Part shown: positions 17,579 to 60,316 of the stretch, piece by piece
How positions within the stretch are numbered: the stretch's first letter is position 1
Layout of the letters: every line of letters starts with the position of its first letter
Assembly: GCA_026770025.1 (NCBI GenBank)
Contig: JAMXDE010000038.1
Span: 372,001 to 436,000 of the forward strand
Origin: Craspedostauros australis
Taxonomy: Eukaryota > Bacillariophyta > Bacillariophyceae > Mastogloiales > Achnanthaceae
Reading direction: 5' to 3'
Length of the DNA stretch: 64,000 nt
The notes under the pieces: model-generated
The model's database searches: none
Told to the model about the DNA's origin: nothing
The model's input: only the letters and a program-made list of their open reading frames with translations
Translations under genes and position numbers: made by a program

Positions 17579-17583
17579 AACAC
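17579..17583. repeat. Target-site duplication of element A, left copy
   Basis: The pentamer aacac directly abuts the left LTR. The same pentamer follows the right LTR at 23005-23009. Five bp is the usual Copia integrase spacing. Confidence 0.85.
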
Positions 17584-17873
17584 TGTTGTAACAACAGCGC
17601 TCTCGCCGGTCTCTACCCGGCTTTGAGCCGAAGGACAGTTCCAGACGATGTTACTGTGTGATTGTATGGGTGGTAAATCAGATAGTTACAATTGATTTTT
17701 ATGGTGTTTGTTTGCTCTCTCTCTCTTTGTTGTTGTTTGCTGTTGCTGTGATCTTATCGCTGACTTGGCGCAGCGATTGTGTGGTCTCGGTTGGTTTTCC
17801 TTGCCTGGTCTGGTCTTCGTCGGGATGCTCCGAAACCACAGGTAGACCGGGAATGTAGGTGTCTTCCCCAACA
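17584..17873 (-). repeat. Element A 3' LTR
   Basis: 290 bp, read as identical to 22715-23004. The element is minus-strand, so this left copy is the 3' LTR. The first 175 bp in element orientation (17873-17699) are also coding: the polyprotein frame continues into the LTR and stops at 17701-17699. Confidence 0.92.
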
Positions 17874-20800
17874 CACTCCTTTGATCCCACCAAGGCTTCC
17901 TTGTATGACTTGACCTTGGTGGTATCACCAACATGGTGGTTGAGGATGATATCCCGGAACATTCTGAATTTGGTCCCTTGCAATGGCTTTGTGAAGAAAT
18001 CTCCGAGCATGTCATCAGTGGGACAGTACTCGACGGTGATGTCTCCTTTTTCAATTCGGTCTGTGGCAAAGAAAAACCGCATGCTGATGTGACGAGTTCG
18101 TTTGCTGCTTGAACCCCGACCATTTTGTTCCAGGAGCATTGCGCTCTGGTTGTCCTGATAGATGGTCGTGGGACCAAGGTCGACACCTTGCTCCTGTAGG
18201 AAATAGCGTGCCCATAACACCTGCGGCATGACGTCGTCGACTGCCACAAGTTCGGCTTCTGTGGAGCTCCTGGTGTTCAGTTTTTGTTTGGATGATGTGG
18301 CGTATATCACACCTCCTCCTGCGGACAGACATGCTCCTGTGTGGCTGCGCATGTTGTCATGGACACCGAATGATCCGTCAACCCACCATCTGATGTCCTT
18401 GAGCGCCGACCCACCGAGCGCAAGTGTTAGGTTGCGTGTTCCGCGCAGGTATTTGACAACACGGGCGAGTTTCTTGTAGTCGTCAGTGTCAGGGGATTTG
18501 ACCCTAGTACATAGAAAAGACACTGCGGTTTGGATGTCTGGTCTCGCTCGCTTGCAGAGGAATAGCAGTTTTGCGATGTTGTGATGAAACATGTCGGCAG
18601 TGTCACTGTCTAGCTTGGTCGGACTGTCCTCATTGATGTTGAATAAGTGATTCGCAGCTGGAGTTGCTGCTATGCCCGACATGTCCCCAGGCACTCCTTC
18701 AATGATGCCATCGATGTATTCGGCCATGTCGATGATGATTTTGTTTGGCGTAGAGTAGTCGAGTCGCATCCCCAAGTATTCGTGTACCTTGCCTCGAGTG
18801 ACTGTTAGCGGTGTTCTCTGTCCATATGCTTTGTTCAACATACCGATAACATCACTCACGACATGCTCATCCACATGTGATATTTTCAGATCGTCCACAT
18901 GCCATACCACTGTGCACTGTTTACCGTTCACAACCTTGTTCGCGATGCACCAGTCATATGGGTTAATAGTGAACCCGTCCTCCTCCAGCGTTGTGGTGAG
19001 GTGTTTCCACCAGCATAGAGCTGCCTTGAGTGTACCGTAGAGTGCCCTTGTGAGCTTGACGTATATAGCCGATTGTCCACGTTTCTTGTGGATGTACTCA
19101 TCATACACGTCTGGGGCGATTTTCCCCAGGATTTCAGCCATTCTTCCCTCGATGAGAACGTGCACAACATCGTCATCGTCGAATTTTGCGTGCAGAAATG
19201 CGCCTGGCACATCAACGGTTGCGACATCACGATTTTCTTGTGCATCAATAACACAAGTGAACATGAGTCCCAACAGTGATACTGTGGGCGAGCTCGTCTC
19301 ATCTTTTGTCATGTATAGACGCTGCTTGCGCCCATCAGCACATCCACGACCCTTGATAATCCCACTCCTTTTCTCTTTCAAATACATGAGATATCGCAGT
19401 GCCTTCCTTCGCTCGTCATGAGTGAGCTGATGCCAGTGCTTGGGCTCAAAGCCCTCCATATCATGGACCTGTTGGAGTTCTCTGCTGATTGCTTCTTCGC
19501 CTCGCTCATGGAATTGTTTCAGTCCTTGTTTCCAGTTCATCTGCTCTGTAACAAAAGTGCATGCCGATGTCTCATTTTCCGGTATTCCGTTGTTCGGTGC
19601 ACCCAACTGTATCATCGTGGCGTGTGCTCCATCCCGTCCTGTATGGTGTAGCTTGTAGTAGTCCACTCGTGGACCGCGTCTTGTACGCATGCGATTGTTG
19701 TTTGTGTTGGAGTGTTGTTCTTCTGTTGGAGTGTTGTCTCGGTTCCCACGTTCATTTCCGACGATTGGGGTTGGGGTGATGAGTGTGTTGTTATCGCGTG
19801 AGTCGGCGGCGATATCGATATCGTCATCTTCTTCGTCGGCGATCACATCGCAATTATGATCGGTTGTTTCGCTGGAGACACTGTCATCTGTCTTGCTTCC
19901 ACCATCGTCATAGTCGTCGCCGTCATGGTTGCTGCAGTCGTCATGGTTGTTGTCATCATCATCATCATCGTCATCACCATCATCGCGATCATCTTCATCA
20001 TTGCCATCATCACTGGTATCATCCATCTCGTCATCCAGTGATTCGTCGCTTGCACTTGATGCATTGTCTTCGTCTTCATTGTGGCCTGCATCGTTGCTGC
20101 CGGTGTCGGGGTATAGTTCGATACCATGACTGGTGGTAAAATGGAGGTTCTTCTCGGATTTGGCTGCCTTGGCCAGTGCATGTACGTGGTCTATCACTGA
20201 TTGTGGCATGGGGATCTCTGTCCAGCTGCGGCGATGAATGCAGCGTCCGGTAGTCAGGCTGTAGAAGACGTAGCCACCTTGGATGTTGCCGGATGGTCGC
20301 AGAGCGATTGCTCCAACGGTGCGTGGTTGCATGGAGTTATCGTGCTGTTCATGTGTTTGCGCGTAGCTGCCGAATTCGATTCTGCAGTGCGCGTTGTAAT
20401 CGAGCTTTCTCCCGACCACAATTTCTGCTGGGCTCATGCGCTTTGATACGCCATCAGGATGTGGGAACATATTCATCCAGTAGACTGAATGATACACCAT
20501 TTCAATGATGAGCGATGGTGGGTACGCCTTGAATGGTAGAGCATGGTATGTAGATCGAGTGCGCTCCTTGATTGTTCGAATATAGCGCTCGACTTCCGGC
20601 ACGTGTTCATCACGAGAGGTCACGTTGATGCTCACACCAACCTCAGACATGTCACCACGGAGCGAGCTGAACTGGTTGTCAGTCAGCATGATACCAACCC
20701 TGAACCCTCGTTGCTTGTACAGCTGAATGATGTTCCTGAACTGCTTCACGAGCGTTGCATTCGACTCGGAGTTGAGCTTGACGACGGTTCCGAACTTGAG

Positions 20801-22681
20801 GTGTTTGGATACGGACACCAGAAATGGAATACCGTTCACCTTCATGATATCCGCAGAGAGCACGACGTCACGATATTGCTGCATGATACTGGCTGGCAAA
20901 TGTGCGATCTTTGCTCGGACGGCCGGGGGTACCTGCCTTGTTGTCTTTCCTTTGAGTGATGGTACATCCGGACCGAAGATGAGCTCGGCAGTGCGAATGT
21001 CCTTGGTTGTGATGGGACAGTTCGGTATCATCCCATTCTTCACGTACTTGATGTAGTTGCGCGTGGTTGGATGTCCAATGCGCTTCTGAATAGATCTAGC
21101 AAGTTGAGCCTGCGAGTAGTCGTAAGTGGAGAAGCTATTTTTGTTATCTTCCACTGTAGTCACGAGAGCTACTTCGCTGGGGCTTGCCATGTTCAGGTAG
21201 TACAGTCCGCGTTGGGACTCGACGAAGGTCCGGGTTGATCCATCCGGCTTGTGTACCACAAAGCTGTTGGTACCACTGCTGTCATATGTGACGCGGAACA
21301 TGGATTTCACGCGGCTGAGTGAGAGGATGTTGGCCACGCCGGATGGGTGGTACCACACTGCGCCATATCCAGGGAGTGTACCCTTCTTGTTGGTGGTGGT
21401 GGTGCCAGCGTTGCAATGGATGGTCAGGGCGGTGTCAACATCATGGATGTCGCGGATGAGTTGTGCGTTGGAGAAGACGTCAACCGTGGATTGATTGTCC
21501 AGCAGAATCCAAGTGTTGGGAATAGGGCTGTGCTTGTTGTGATTGTGGTGGTTGGTGAGGAAAACGAACTCATCTTCATCATCCCCCACAGTCGTCGCAT
21601 GGACGAGGACAGTCCCATTTGCATGGTATTTGGCATGACACTGGTCGGTTGTGTGGTTGCTGCGACCGCATCGCTCACACTTGGTGTCGTTTTCGTGTGT
21701 GTTCACGAATGCCATGCCTGAATCCTTTGGAGTGTTGTGACCTGGAAGATTCCTTGGATCCTTCGACCAGTGGTTCAGCATTGTGAACGCCTCCGCCATG
21801 GTCTTGGGGTATCGATCATCACCTTTGAGGTAGTCGTTCTGTAGTTCTTCGATGAGGGATCCGTACCGGTGGCGATCTGCGCCGAGGATGAAAGCAACGG
21901 CAAGGAAGCGCTGCTTGGCATCCTTCCTGATCTCCTTTCGCTCTTCCTCGCTTGGGTCTTTGAGGTTACGCTCCTTGAGGACATGAAGGGCTGCGCTGGT
22001 CACCTCTGTGACATTGGTCATGAGTGTGTCGTTCACATCGACCAGATTGATGAAGGATTCGTAGTATTCTTGTGTGGTTTGTTTTCTCTTTTGTTGGAAG
22101 GTGAGAAGGTCCTTCATGATCATGTGTGCGGCGACCAAGTGGTGCTGGTGTGTTTGGAAATTGAAAACAACACTCTTTATCATCTTGATGAGGGTGATTG
22201 TGTCCATGCTGCTGTTGGCTGCAGAGTATTCTGTCATCTCTTGTAGGCGGCTTCGCATGATCTCTGAGCACTGGCCCCAGATCAGGGCGTACACCTTTTG
22301 GAGGTCCACCTCGGCATTGGCAAGCCGGGTGGTGTAGAGGGCATACTTGCGCTTCCACTTTTCCTTCTGAATCTCGGTGGCGTTGCTCGGGTAGTCGGCT
22401 GGCTCGGGGATGGACGGCGGCTGGAGGTTTTCAATGGCGAGTGCGACGGCTGGTCCGTATTCTGATCCGACGTACACCTTGACTGCATCGAGTGTGCGAG
22501 TGAATTCATCGACCTGCTTGGATCGGTTCGCTACACAGTCGAAAACGAATCCCTTCAGGCCAGAGCATGCTCCTTCGAACTTGGCTGGACGCACGAACGG
22601 TGGTCGATGTGGCTTGTTTGTTTTGTTGTTGCTGTCCGGCGCTGACTTTCTCGGCACAGCCGGCTTACTCTCGGTGCTCAT
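17699..22681 (-). CDS. Element A Gag-Pol polyprotein
   Basis: 1660 residues from ATG at 22681. The frame is open for eight codons further but only from a TTG. Order: Gag; CCHC zinc knuckle CERCGRSNHTTDQC near 334-347; aspartic protease-like segment WILLDNQSTVDVFSN near 390; GAG-pre-integrase region (ARSIQKRIGH); integrase core with D in VLSADIMK (about 605), D in IMLTDNQF and E in VPEVERYI; a long Asp/Asn-rich hinge (about 870-960) encoded by GAT/GAC repeats; reverse transcriptase with DVPGAFLHA and WHVDDLKISH (about 1255); RNase H with WWVDGSFG (about 1431), STEAELVAVDD and YQDNQSA. Oddities: protease DNQS instead of D(T/S)G, polymerase box HVDD instead of YVDD, and a C-terminus of about 58 residues encoded inside the 3' LTR. 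No stop or frameshift interrupts it. Confidence 0.92.
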   Translation of the reverse strand: MSTESKPAVPRKSAPDSNNKTNKPHRPPFVRPAKFEGACSGLKGFVFDCVANRSKQVDEFTRTLDAVKVYVGSEYGPAVALAIENLQPPSIPEPADYPSNATEIQKEKWKRKYALYTTRLANAEVDLQKVYALIWGQCSEIMRSRLQEMTEYSAANSSMDTITLIKMIKSVVFNFQTHQHHLVAAHMIMKDLLTFQQKRKQTTQEYYESFINLVDVNDTLMTNVTEVTSAALHVLKERNLKDPSEEERKEIRKDAKQRFLAVAFILGADRHRYGSLIEELQNDYLKGDDRYPKTMAEAFTMLNHWSKDPRNLPGHNTPKDSGMAFVNTHENDTKCERCGRSNHTTDQCHAKYHANGTVLVHATTVGDDEDEFVFLTNHHNHNKHSPIPNTWILLDNQSTVDVFSNAQLIRDIHDVDTALTIHCNAGTTTTNKKGTLPGYGAVWYHPSGVANILSLSRVKSMFRVTYDSSGTNSFVVHKPDGSTRTFVESQRGLYYLNMASPSEVALVTTVEDNKNSFSTYDYSQAQLARSIQKRIGHPTTRNYIKYVKNGMIPNCPITTKDIRTAELIFGPDVPSLKGKTTRQVPPAVRAKIAHLPASIMQQYRDVVLSADIMKVNGIPFLVSVSKHLKFGTVVKLNSESNATLVKQFRNIIQLYKQRGFRVGIMLTDNQFSSLRGDMSEVGVSINVTSRDEHVPEVERYIRTIKERTRSTYHALPFKAYPPSLIIEMVYHSVYWMNMFPHPDGVSKRMSPAEIVVGRKLDYNAHCRIEFGSYAQTHEQHDNSMQPRTVGAIALRPSGNIQGGYVFYSLTTGRCIHRRSWTEIPMPQSVIDHVHALAKAAKSEKNLHFTTSHGIELYPDTGSNDAGHNEDEDNASSASDESLDDEMDDTSDDGNDEDDRDDGDDDDDDDDNNHDDCSNHDGDDYDDGGSKTDDSVSSETTDHNCDVIADEEDDDIDIAADSRDNNTLITPTPIVGNERGNRDNTPTEEQHSNTNNNRMRTRRGPRVDYYKLHHTGRDGAHATMIQLGAPNNGIPENETSACTFVTEQMNWKQGLKQFHERGEEAISRELQQVHDMEGFEPKHWHQLTHDERRKALRYLMYLKEKRSGIIKGRGCADGRKQRLYMTKDETSSPTVSLLGLMFTCVIDAQENRDVATVDVPGAFLHAKFDDDDVVHVLIEGRMAEILGKIAPDVYDEYIHKKRGQSAIYVKLTRALYGTLKAALCWWKHLTTTLEEDGFTINPYDWCIANKVVNGKQCTVVWHVDDLKISHVDEHVVSDVIGMLNKAYGQRTPLTVTRGKVHEYLGMRLDYSTPNKIIIDMAEYIDGIIEGVPGDMSGIAATPAANHLFNINEDSPTKLDSDTADMFHHNIAKLLFLCKRARPDIQTAVSFLCTRVKSPDTDDYKKLARVVKYLRGTRNLTLALGGSALKDIRWWVDGSFGVHDNMRSHTGACLSAGGGVIYATSSKQKLNTRSSTEAELVAVDDVMPQVLWARYFLQEQGVDLGPTTIYQDNQSAMLLEQNGRGSSSKRTRHISMRFFFATDRIEKGDITVEYCPTDDMLGDFFTKPLQGTKFRMFRDIILNHHVGDTTKVKSYKEALVGSKECVGEDTYIPGLPVVSEHPDEDQTRQGKPTETTQSLRQVSDKITATANNNKERESKQTP
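17874..17885 (-). promoter_or_regulatory. Element A polypurine tract candidate
   Basis: Read on the minus strand, the bases next to the 3' LTR are caaaggagtg, purine-rich and within the coding frame. This is the place where plus-strand DNA synthesis would be primed. It is short and imperfect. Confidence 0.4.
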
Positions 22682-22696
22682 CTTTGCTGATAGAGC

Positions 22697-22714
22697 AAAA
22701 ATCAATTGTAACTA
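22697..22714 (-). promoter_or_regulatory. Element A primer-binding position, complementary to its own LTR
   Basis: Immediately inside the 5' LTR the minus strand reads tagttacaattgattttt. No TGG-type tRNA complement is visible. Plus-strand 22813-22831 in the LTR (atagttacaattgattttt) is an exact inverted copy of 22697-22715, 19 bp. In the element's RNA the LTR segment could therefore pair with this site. This resembles the self-primer arrangement of fission-yeast Tf1. The mechanism is inference. Confidence 0.5.
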
Positions 22715-23004
22715 TGTTGTAACAACAGCGCTCTCGCCGGTCTCTACCCGGCTTTGAGCCGAAGGACAGTTCCAGACGATGTTACTGTGTGATTGTATGG
22801 GTGGTAAATCAGATAGTTACAATTGATTTTTATGGTGTTTGTTTGCTCTCTCTCTCTTTGTTGTTGTTTGCTGTTGCTGTGATCTTATCGCTGACTTGGC
22901 GCAGCGATTGTGTGGTCTCGGTTGGTTTTCCTTGCCTGGTCTGGTCTTCGTCGGGATGCTCCGAAACCACAGGTAGACCGGGAATGTAGGTGTCTTCCCC
23001 AACA
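22715..23004 (-). repeat. Element A 5' LTR
   Basis: 290 bp, read as identical to 17584-17873. It contains small hairpins in the part between the LTR end and 22812: tgttgt-a-acaaca at the terminus, and cggct-ttg-agccg. A pyrimidine run (ctctctctctc on the plus strand) lies at about 22846-22857. No TATA box is apparent upstream of the putative transcript start near 22831. Confidence 0.92.
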
Positions 23005-23009
23005 AACAC
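23005..23009. repeat. Target-site duplication of element A, right copy
   Basis: The pentamer aacac, matching 17579-17583, borders the outer end of the right LTR. Confidence 0.85.
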
Positions 23010-32506: not shown

Positions 32507-32775
32507 ACCTTGCCACAATGATGTGGTGGATGATTGGGGGGCGTTGTGTTGGTGTGTGTGGGGGGAGGGCGGCATTCTGCGACAAGCGCAAAAACACCTA
32601 GTCAAAAATTATAGACAGACTTGGTACTAGTGCACCAAGTGGAACGGGATCACGTACAGTCTGGAGTGTTTCATCCGTGTATTGACCAGCTCCTCCGTTC
32701 TGCTATTCTCCTTGCTGATCAAGAACAAGCATGTCTAAGGTAAGTATGGGTGTTGTTGTCGCGTCGCTCGCACAC
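32507..32775 (+). repeat. 269-bp dispersed repeat, copy 1 (ends with ATG exon and splice donor)
   Basis: 269 bp repeated at 40483-40751 with about eight mismatches and no gap in length. The repeat contains ATG TCT AAG at 32731-32739 directly followed by gtaagt, a perfect-looking splice donor. Before it are a tract of G and T, the motif aaaaacacctagtcaaaaa and a pyrimidine-rich stretch. It reads like a promoter, 5' UTR and three-codon first exon (Met-Ser-Lys) copied from some gene. I cannot identify the parent gene. The sequences after the two copies do not match each other. Confidence 0.75.
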
Positions 32776-40482: not shown

Positions 40483-40751
40483 ACCTTGCCACAAGGATGT
40501 GGTGGATGATTGGGGGGTGTTGTGTTGGTGTGTGTGTGGGGAGGGCGGCATTCTGCGACAAGCGCAAAAACACCTAGTCAAAAATTATAGACAGACTTGG
40601 TACTAGTGCACCAAGTGGAACGGGATCACGTACAGTCTGGAGTGTTTCATCCGTGTATTGACCAGCTCCTCCGTTCTGCTATTCTCCTTGTTGATCAAGA
40701 ACAAGCATGTCTAAGGTAAGTATGTGTGTTGTTATTGCGTCGCTCGCACAC
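40483..40751 (+). repeat. 269-bp dispersed repeat, copy 2 (ends with ATG exon and splice donor)
   Basis: Same length and orientation as 32507-32775, offset 7976 bp. ATG TCT AAG is at 40707-40715, followed by gtaagt. The central 150 bp have a single mismatch. No gene continuing from the exon can be recognised downstream. Confidence 0.75.
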
Positions 40752-51480: not shown

Positions 51481-51485
51481 GTCTG
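51481..51485. repeat. Target-site duplication of element B, left copy
   Basis: The pentamer gtctg abuts the left LTR. The same pentamer follows the right LTR at 60312-60316. Confidence 0.75.
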
Positions 51486-52027
51486 AGTTGGGACAGACTT
51501 GGTCCGGGATCCACTCGGGACTCAATCGTCCGCGTTGCGTACACGGTACCCAGTATCCGAACCCGATACTGCCATGAAAGGCTACCGTGCGCATGGTGTA
51601 TAGTTGAACCACAATCCATGCTCTGCTCATCCTCCAGCTCATGCAACCGCGCCACCTGTTCAGCTAACCATCTTGCGAATCCTGCAGGCATCTTGAAGCA
51701 TATCCACACCCGTGGATCAAGTACTGCTCTACAGATGGGGCTACTGAACAGCTGGGTATGTGCAGAACCATCACGACATGTTGCTGTACAACACAAACGG
51801 CTCAAGCACGATAGCATGAATCCTGCCCTTTTACTCGATCGTCCTGTCAACAGTAAGCTTAACACATAAAACAAGCAATCAGAAACAATCTTACCAGTTT
51901 ACCTTCAAGTCTACTACAGTTACATCATCGTCTGATTCAGCTTTGTTCTCAACATCAAACGGCGTCAAAACCGGTTGAAGGACAAACCATCCTCCTGACA
52001 ACGTGCAGAAGACACGGAATACTAACT
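51486..52027 (+). repeat. Element B 5' LTR
   Basis: 542 bp. Borders were set by the point where similarity to the right LTR stops and by the gtctg target duplication. Differences from the right copy are scattered substitutions (e.g. at about 51529, 51586 and 51633), mostly transitions, and no indels were seen. Confidence 0.85.
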
Positions 52028-52043
52028 GGTAGCTGCGAGTGGT
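52027..52043 (+). promoter_or_regulatory. Element B primer-binding site candidate
   Basis: The sequence tggtagctgcgag starts at the last base of the LTR. TGG plus TAGCTGCG would be complementary to a tRNA 3' end ...CGCAGCUACCA, of the kind found in eukaryotic initiator Met tRNAs. The stretch gcgagtggttctcgc can also form a 5-bp hairpin here. The tRNA identity needs the organism's tRNA set. Confidence 0.55.
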
Positions 52044-59760: not shown

Positions 59761-59769
59761 GAGAGGGAG
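59761..59769 (+). promoter_or_regulatory. Element B polypurine tract
   Basis: The nonamer gagagggag immediately precedes the right LTR, the expected place for plus-strand priming. Confidence 0.65.
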
Positions 59770-60311
59770 AGTTGGGACAGACTTGGTCCGGGATCCACTC
59801 GGGACTCAATCGTCCTCGTTGCGTACACGGTACCCAGTATCCGAACCCGATACTGCCATGAAAGGCTACCGCACGCATGGTGTATAGTTGAACCACAATC
59901 CATGCTCTGCTCGTCCTCCAGCTCATGCAACTGCGCCACCTGTTCAGCTAACCATCTTGCAAATCCTGCAAGCATCTTGAAGCATATCCACACCCGTGGA
60001 TCAAGTACTGCTCTACGGATGGGGCTACTGAACAGCTGGGTATGTGCAGAACCATCACGACATGTTGCTGTACAACACAAACGGCTCAAGCATGATAGCA
60101 TGAACCCTGCCCTTTTACTCAATCGTCCTGTCAACAGTAAGCTTAACACATAAAACAAGCAATCAGAAACAATCTTACCAGTTTACCTTCAAGTCTACTA
60201 CAGTTACATCATCGTCTGATACAGCTTTGTTCTCAACATCAAACGGCGTCAAAACCGGTTGAAGGACAAACCATCCTCCTGACAACGTGCAGAAGACACG
60301 GAATACTAACT
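59770..60311 (+). repeat. Element B 3' LTR
   Basis: 542 bp, about 98% identical to 51486-52027 by eye, ending ...actaact. Confidence 0.85.
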
Positions 60312-60316
60312 GTCTG
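60312..60316. repeat. Target-site duplication of element B, right copy
   Basis: The pentamer gtctg, matching 51481-51485. Confidence 0.75.

Follow-up and report, generated by a model that had tools for sequence, protein, structure and literature searches.

LTR retrotransposons and retroviruses usually start reverse transcription from a tRNA. The Tf1/sushi clade is characterized by a reverse transcriptase (RT) of the Ty3/gypsy type and by a chromodomain. Self-priming was first demonstrated for Tf1 (PMC4600332), whose primer consists of its first 11 bases, with the cleavage between bases 11 and 12 (PMC7175516); apart from Tf1, self-priming is mostly a matter of sequence prediction in the literature covered. 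In the element Tj1 of Schizosaccharomyces japonicus, the primer binding site (PBS) is the complement of the element's RNA 5' end, and self-priming was proposed for it (PMC4600332). Among plant Ty1/copia elements, the TAR lineage was predicted to self-prime, and for Houba and Osr-1 self-priming was proposed (PMC6317226). The fungal GalEa elements, which also belong to Ty1/copia, have no tRNA-type PBS and carry a palindromic Conserved Hairpin Site, for which the authors found no U5 complement, according to the excerpt (PMC5445492). For the CoDi elements of diatoms, the main text of the paper, as far as the excerpt goes, contains the word 'PBS' once and neither 'tRNA' nor 'self-prim' (PMC2806351).

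Element A, which lies on the minus strand of the window (the whole 64-kb stretch of DNA analysed here), resembles Tf1, a Ty3/gypsy element of the Tf1/sushi clade in fission yeast, in that its PBS, apparently not of the tRNA type, complements a segment of the LTR that would form the 5' end of the RNA. It differs from Tf1 in its RT, which is of the Ty1/copia type (RVT_2), and in the length of the pairing, which is 15-18 nt instead of 11 nt; the transcript start and the cleavage were reported for Tf1, whereas for A we infer them. The RVT_2 score of 55.9 bits (Pfam cut-off 31.6) identified the RT as Copia-type, RVT_2 was the sole RT match, and no chromodomain was listed by Pfam at E 0.001; with these properties, A does not fit into the Tf1/sushi clade. 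A and Tj1 have in common a PBS that pairs with the 5' end of the element's RNA (in A, the predicted one), and the host of Tj1 is a fission yeast. Like GalEa, A is a Copia element apparently without a tRNA-type PBS, but the PBS of A is non-palindromic and has a perfect complement in the LTR, so that A does not have a Conserved Hairpin Site as defined for GalEa (PMC5445492). TAR, Houba and Osr-1 differ from A in having plant hosts and in being predicted by lineage, with no covariation test mentioned in the excerpt (PMC6317226). The CoDi elements are Ty1/copia elements like A, and their broad host group is probably the same.

The features of A are collected in Table 1. The LTR ends (TGTTG...CAACA) are of the TG...CA type, as in Ty1/copia, and the target duplication AACAC on the plus strand reads GTGTT in the element sense. 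Pfam listed no integrase domain in A; an integrase-like D..D..E stretch was seen by eye in the translation ahead of the RT. The possible polypurine tract was assigned by its position only, and AAAGGAGTG or GCAGGAATG was read by eye at the equivalent place in L065, L063 and L064. The ATG lies 15 nt past the PBS. The gag-pol frame crosses the entire U3 of the 3' LTR (17699-17873) and stops at the predicted U3/R border; U3 is therefore coding. The TAA overlaps the first two bases of the 3'-LTR primer segment, as it does in L029, and in L065 and L063 the frame stops slightly later, within or just past the primer segment. In the 74.8-Mb genome, the DNA search listed 19 LTR matches of A. Three full copies (on contigs C36, C30 and C23) each have identical LTRs and a 5-bp duplication of their own, which shows that elements with this border moved recently.

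Table 1 Positions of the features of elements A and C in the window
Feature	Positions	Strand	Remarks
Element A, complete Ty1/copia retrotransposon, 5421 bp	17584..23004	-	LTR pair, 5-bp duplication, RVT_2 match
5' LTR, TGTTGG...TACAACA in element sense	22715..23004	-	290/290 identity with 3' LTR
3' LTR	17584..17873	-	290/290 identity with 5' LTR
Target-site duplication AACAC, copy at the 3' end of A	17579..17583	.	
Target-site duplication AACAC, copy at the 5' end of A	23005..23009	.	
Predicted self-primer, 18 nt, AAAAATCAATTGTAACTA	22814..22831	-	Perfect PBS complement; covaries with PBS in four sister types
Primer binding site TAGTTACAATTGATTTTT, adjoining the 5' LTR	22697..22714	-	Exact complement of AAAAATCAATTGTAACTA
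Primer 3' end to LTR end, predicted strong-stop region	22715..22813	-	99 nt (98-103 in relatives)
Small hairpin CGGCT-CAA-AGCCG (element sense) in the strong-stop stretch	22749..22761	-	
Primer segment, second copy within the 3' LTR	17683..17700	-	
gag-pol reading frame, 1660 aa	17699..22681	-	ATG at 22681, TAA at 17701-17699
Reverse transcriptase domain RVT_2 (PF07727)	18695..19399	-	E 6.3e-15, residues 1095-1329
CCHC zinc-finger-like stretch, weak	21605..21682	-	PF14787, 23.6 bits, below the Pfam cut-off of 27
Possible polypurine tract AAAGGAGTG, adjoining the 3' LTR	17874..17882	-	Position only
Element C, larger Ty1/copia, approximate LTRs	51485-52028, 59769-60312		
Element C, reading frame, 2502 aa	52179-59687		

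An earlier note on this DNA had described an exact 19-nt inversion at the 5' LTR border of A, and both its coordinates and its perfect complementarity were borne out: 22697-22715 (aaaaatcaattgtaactat, plus strand) is the exact reverse complement of 22813-22831, and 97 nt separate the two. Position 22715 is the terminal base of the 5' LTR, and 22697-22714 are the 18 bases beyond it. In the element sense, ..TTACAACA is the end of the 5' LTR, and TAGTTACAATTGATTTTT begins with the next base; the base after the primer, T at 22813, also pairs with the final A of the LTR. No other perfect inverted pair in the window reaches 14 nt with its arms at most 400 nt apart. In 30 dinucleotide shuffles of the window we found a mean of 0.07 such pairs, none longer than 14 nt, and when the LTR was shuffled 20,000 times, no complement to the 18-base PBS exceeded 12 nt, a length reached once. 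As the same arrangement recurs at 12 junctions of sister elements (see below), the probability that the inverted pair arose by chance or as an assembly artefact is negligible, and chance was rejected on the basis of the shuffles. The small hairpins described in the same note, cggct-ttg-agccg (22749-22761) and the terminal tgttgt/acaaca, are both present. The leader of A folds stably, with a z-score of -5.6 (0 of 200 shuffles as stable).

The border is indeed without TGG, as the earlier note had observed in stating that no TGG-type complement is present. To look for other tRNA complements, we used a tRNA list that is a lower bound, with 63 tRNA genes scored of 1610 first-look candidates and 40 of the 63 read. 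The last 12 bases of the primer, searched for genome-wide for the type of A only, occur at 17 sites; all 17 lie in LTRs or PBSs of the A family, without overlap with the 63 tRNA genes of the list. Among the 40 tRNAs read, none of the five PBS types (A and four sister types) matched a tRNA 3' end beyond 7 of 12 positions, and the four sister types had no contiguous tRNA match longer than 7 nt. The primer of A has 11 contiguous nt (CAATTGTAACT) in common with a tRNA-Gly(GCC) on contig C83 (L096); they are not at the 3' end of the tRNA, and the match is probably due to chance. C83 carries a dense tRNA cluster and is therefore taken as probably organellar; the only two Met tRNAs among the 40 read are both on this contig. 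A control of the method failed in that the border of element C, TGGTAGCTGCGAG, a likely tRNA case, matched none of the 40 tRNAs.

It is nevertheless conceivable that priming is by a tRNA or half-tRNA, with the match within the LTR being secondary, since tRNA-Met or half-tRNAs are the predicted primers of most plant Copia groups, according to the excerpt (PMC6317226), and the 11-nt match to tRNA-Gly(GCC) points in the same direction. However, the restriction of the border 12-mer to the LTRs and PBSs of the A family, the short tRNA matches of the other four types and the fact that the PBS varies between sister types yet always follows the LTR make this very improbable. Half-tRNA priming was rejected as a candidate because no match was present among the 40 tRNAs read. 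The comparison of these sequences thus argues strongly, from an incomplete tRNA list, against a tRNA primer, and the tRNA or half-tRNA match to the border that the earlier note had named as evidence against self-priming was not found in this partial set.

The relatives of A were identified in a protein search with its RT region, which resulted in 86 RT matches, 21 of them at least 64% identical. Three of the 21 are A's own family, and the 5' regions of 14 of the 18 others were fetched; C48:33368, C6:2290078, C19:950338 and C8:1872165, all partial matches, were left out of the sister set (on C8, locus L029 comprises the 3' LTR and 4.3 kb upstream of it, which is not long enough to include a 5' LTR). 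The 14 sister copies are 72-78% identical to A in the RT. In 12 of them, a segment of the LTR and the PBS form a perfect inverted pair of 16-17 nt, with a gap of 96-101 nt. Four primer types occur at these 12 junctions, all unlike that of A (AAACCAATTCAAAGTA, AATCCAGTTTAAAATA, AATCAAACAAACAGTA and AACTTGTGTAAACTA), and each perfectly matches its own PBS. For the copies on C29 and C20, no LTR/PBS junction was present in the part of the upstream DNA that was fetched, nor any LTR or PBS like those of the other families apart from 3' LTRs at the far ends; these two copies neither favour nor oppose self-priming. With up to two mismatches, the primer 18-mer of A has 18 sites in the genome, and each of them belongs to an LTR or PBS of A's family or its near relatives. 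A search of IMG/VR and of the prokaryote genome set gave no relatives, and all relatives are from one genome.

Two of these loci have an unusual arrangement. L051 and L052 (C1, RT matches 1837180 and 1842435) have the same orientation and are 5255 bp apart, which is close to the LTR-to-LTR distance of A (5131) and suggests a head-to-tail pair with a common middle LTR. The sister copy on C29 (L044, L061) seems to lack its 5' end, and by eye an apparent 3' part of a different Copia element lies close upstream; this locus is possibly a recombinant or a nested insertion.

The comparison of primers and PBSs showed that the 15 bases nearest the border all pair at 13 of 13 junctions (A and 12 sisters), a result independent of the row trimming described below. 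The pairing begins at the LTR border, and the first mismatch comes after 15-18 nt. When each of the five types was represented by one element, 15 of 15 pairs formed with the own PBS and 6-11 of 15 with the PBSs of the other types. In the 13 columns compared, the types have 4-9 letters in common, and the stretch between primer and PBS is 52-77% identical. We aligned the leaders of 11 of the 13 junctions (L047 and L052 were dropped as repeats of L046 and L051, and the other two copies of A were omitted); the 11 rows are related and stand for five types. Eleven of the 19 primer:PBS pairs showed changes on both sides, eight were invariant and none was changed on one side, with A-U, U-A, G-C and C-G as the only pair types and no G-U. 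Primer base 19 (T) pairs with the last A of the LTR in 11 of 11 rows. All 187 of 187 primer:PBS cells were paired, which is partly by construction, as each row was trimmed to the start of its own pairing. Unaided, RNAalifold picked 17 of the 19 primer:PBS pairs. In the whole 24-pair structure, 97.1% of the cells were paired and 49 cells were changed on both sides; neither value was reached in 500 shuffles, nor was the covariation score, and slid controls paired at 30-44%. The number of pairs with a two-sided change in this structure (12) is a weak measure, reached by 8 of 500 shuffles, and the number of further pair types (18) is a null measure, reached by 376 of 500. Primer and PBS are equally divergent because the pairing is perfect; hence this is not separate evidence.

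Each primer type forms a single cluster in the RT tree, with 4 changes, the minimum for five labels; 1 of 200 shuffles was as low. Besides A, the tree includes ten sisters, but not L052 and L056, and a distant Copia row whose branch is very long; support is weak at 4 of the 9 inner branches. The earlier note had regarded independent change of the two segments in relatives as evidence against its proposal. We found the opposite: the five types change only jointly. As far as can be read from the aligned sequences, these two-sided, exclusively Watson-Crick changes are the mark of a PBS that is rewritten from the element's own primer.

The inverted pair could also be a structural RNA or DNA hairpin with a role in packaging, dimer formation or regulation, with something else serving as the primer. 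The stable fold of the leader would fit this, as would the small hairpin in the intervening stretch, in which 4 of 5 pairs form in 11 of 11 elements, including one pair that changed on both sides, and the loop-closing pair is present in 4 of 11. However, a helix maintained for its shape only is expected to pass via G-U, as the small hairpin does (columns 79/85: UG in 6 and CG in 5 rows), whereas the primer:PBS helix has neither a G-U pair nor a one-sided change in the 11 rows. In addition, one arm lies exactly at the obligatory place of the PBS, the pairing sets in at the LTR border, and the analysis gave no other candidate for the primer, so that we regard a purely structural role as quite improbable. 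The hairpin without a priming role was rejected as a candidate for its lack of G-U intermediates.

Self-priming is strongly supported by these comparisons as by far the best explanation of the border complementarity and the covariation. Very probably, then, the minus-strand DNA of A and its sister families is primed by the 5' end of their own RNA; the Tf1-like self-priming suggested in the earlier note is supported by the joint change of primer and PBS and by the lack of a fitting tRNA among the 40 read. The transcript would begin near 22831, within a few bases, with the 22831 side of the primer segment as the putative start of both R and the transcript. Given the perfect complementarity and the predicted fold, its first 15-18 nt would fold back across 96-101 nt and pair with the PBS. 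By analogy with Tf1, the RNase H of the element would cut just behind the primer; in A this cut would separate base 18 from base 19. The 3' OH produced in this way would lie exactly at the LTR border, from where RT would synthesize the strong-stop DNA. The pair between T at base 19 and the last A of the LTR may, speculatively, hold the duplex across the cutting site. In plus-strand synthesis, the RNA primer, at that stage still joined to the minus strand, would be copied, rewriting the PBS from the LTR-borne primer, a step that we take from the general scheme of reverse transcription. Such rewriting would lead to a joint change of primer and PBS that always results in Watson-Crick pairs. The first mismatch after 15-18 nt would mark the length of the copied primer.

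In every type, the pairing begins within a CATAAA or CACAAA motif. A point against self-priming from the transcript 5' end is that CATAAAA at the start of the primer can be read as a TATA box, with the transcript then starting downstream of the primer. Retroelement RNA is usually packaged as pairs. If transcription started downstream of 22814, an LTR-derived primer could act in trans or come from the copy of the segment in the 3' LTR, and pairing between two packaged RNA molecules is possible. We consider this unlikely, since the first mismatch after 15-18 nt suggests a defined 5' end of the primer, as from a transcript start, and a segment within the 3' LTR would require two cuts.

Self-priming from the RNA 5' end, the reading that we prefer, is not new in its kind. 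The earlier note had called it noteworthy in a Copia-type element; given the predictions for plants, A is not the first Ty1/copia case (PMC6317226). In the open-access literature on Copia, other LTR elements, diatoms and stramenopiles, no case of self-priming in a diatom was among the matches listed. Relative to the literature searched, the Copia lineage, the host group, the primer of 15-18 nt and the covariation test are new. The comparative test in Ty1/copia is strong, in that the pairing outlasts the replacement of most letters, which makes an independent origin of self-priming plausible. It is possible, though we would stop short of calling it probable, that a Ty1/copia lineage of a silicifying alga abandoned tRNA priming and that its primer and PBS drift as a unit, with a private code for each family. 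According to this proposal, the unit drifts because the PBS is rewritten from the element's own 5' RNA in each round of replication, with five types found so far. If this is true, the private codes (6-11 of 15 pairs across types) would prevent cross-priming and free the families from the tRNAs of the host. Watson-Crick covariation without G-U intermediates also lends itself to a general computational test for self-priming.

Further elements of the genome have other borders. In another Copia lineage (L057-L060, for example L058:1124-1162), with an RT 25-27% identical to that of A, the apparent LTR/internal border contains the 39-mer GGATTTCCAACACGTTTCGAAACGTTACGATTGAAATCC, in which the 12-bp palindrome CGTTTCGAAACG, flanked by GGATTTC and GAAATCC, follows ..CCAACA without a TGG-type PBS. 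With up to three mismatches, the 39-mer occurs 237 times in the genome, and the reversed control occurs 0 times. It resembles the Conserved Hairpin Site of GalEa, as described in the excerpt (PMC5445492), and the palindrome may represent another mode of priming. Element C of the window, with an RVT_2 match of E 1.2e-38, holds TGGTAGCTGCGAGTGG at its border, which resembles the complement of a tRNA 3' end. The border sequence GAACCACTCGCAGCTA of this element occurs 157 times in the genome with up to one mismatch, compared to 7 times for the reversed control, and had no match among the 40 tRNAs read. The window also contains a direct repeat of about 229 bp (32520-32748 and 40496-40724, 7976 bp apart) without clear LTR ends. 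The silicon-transporter family had 88 matches in the genome, 32 of them spanning at least 480 of 513 positions, of which 4 contained internal stops. These matches point to a silicifying eukaryote as the host, probably a diatom or one of its close relatives, and their number looks like a large expansion of the family.
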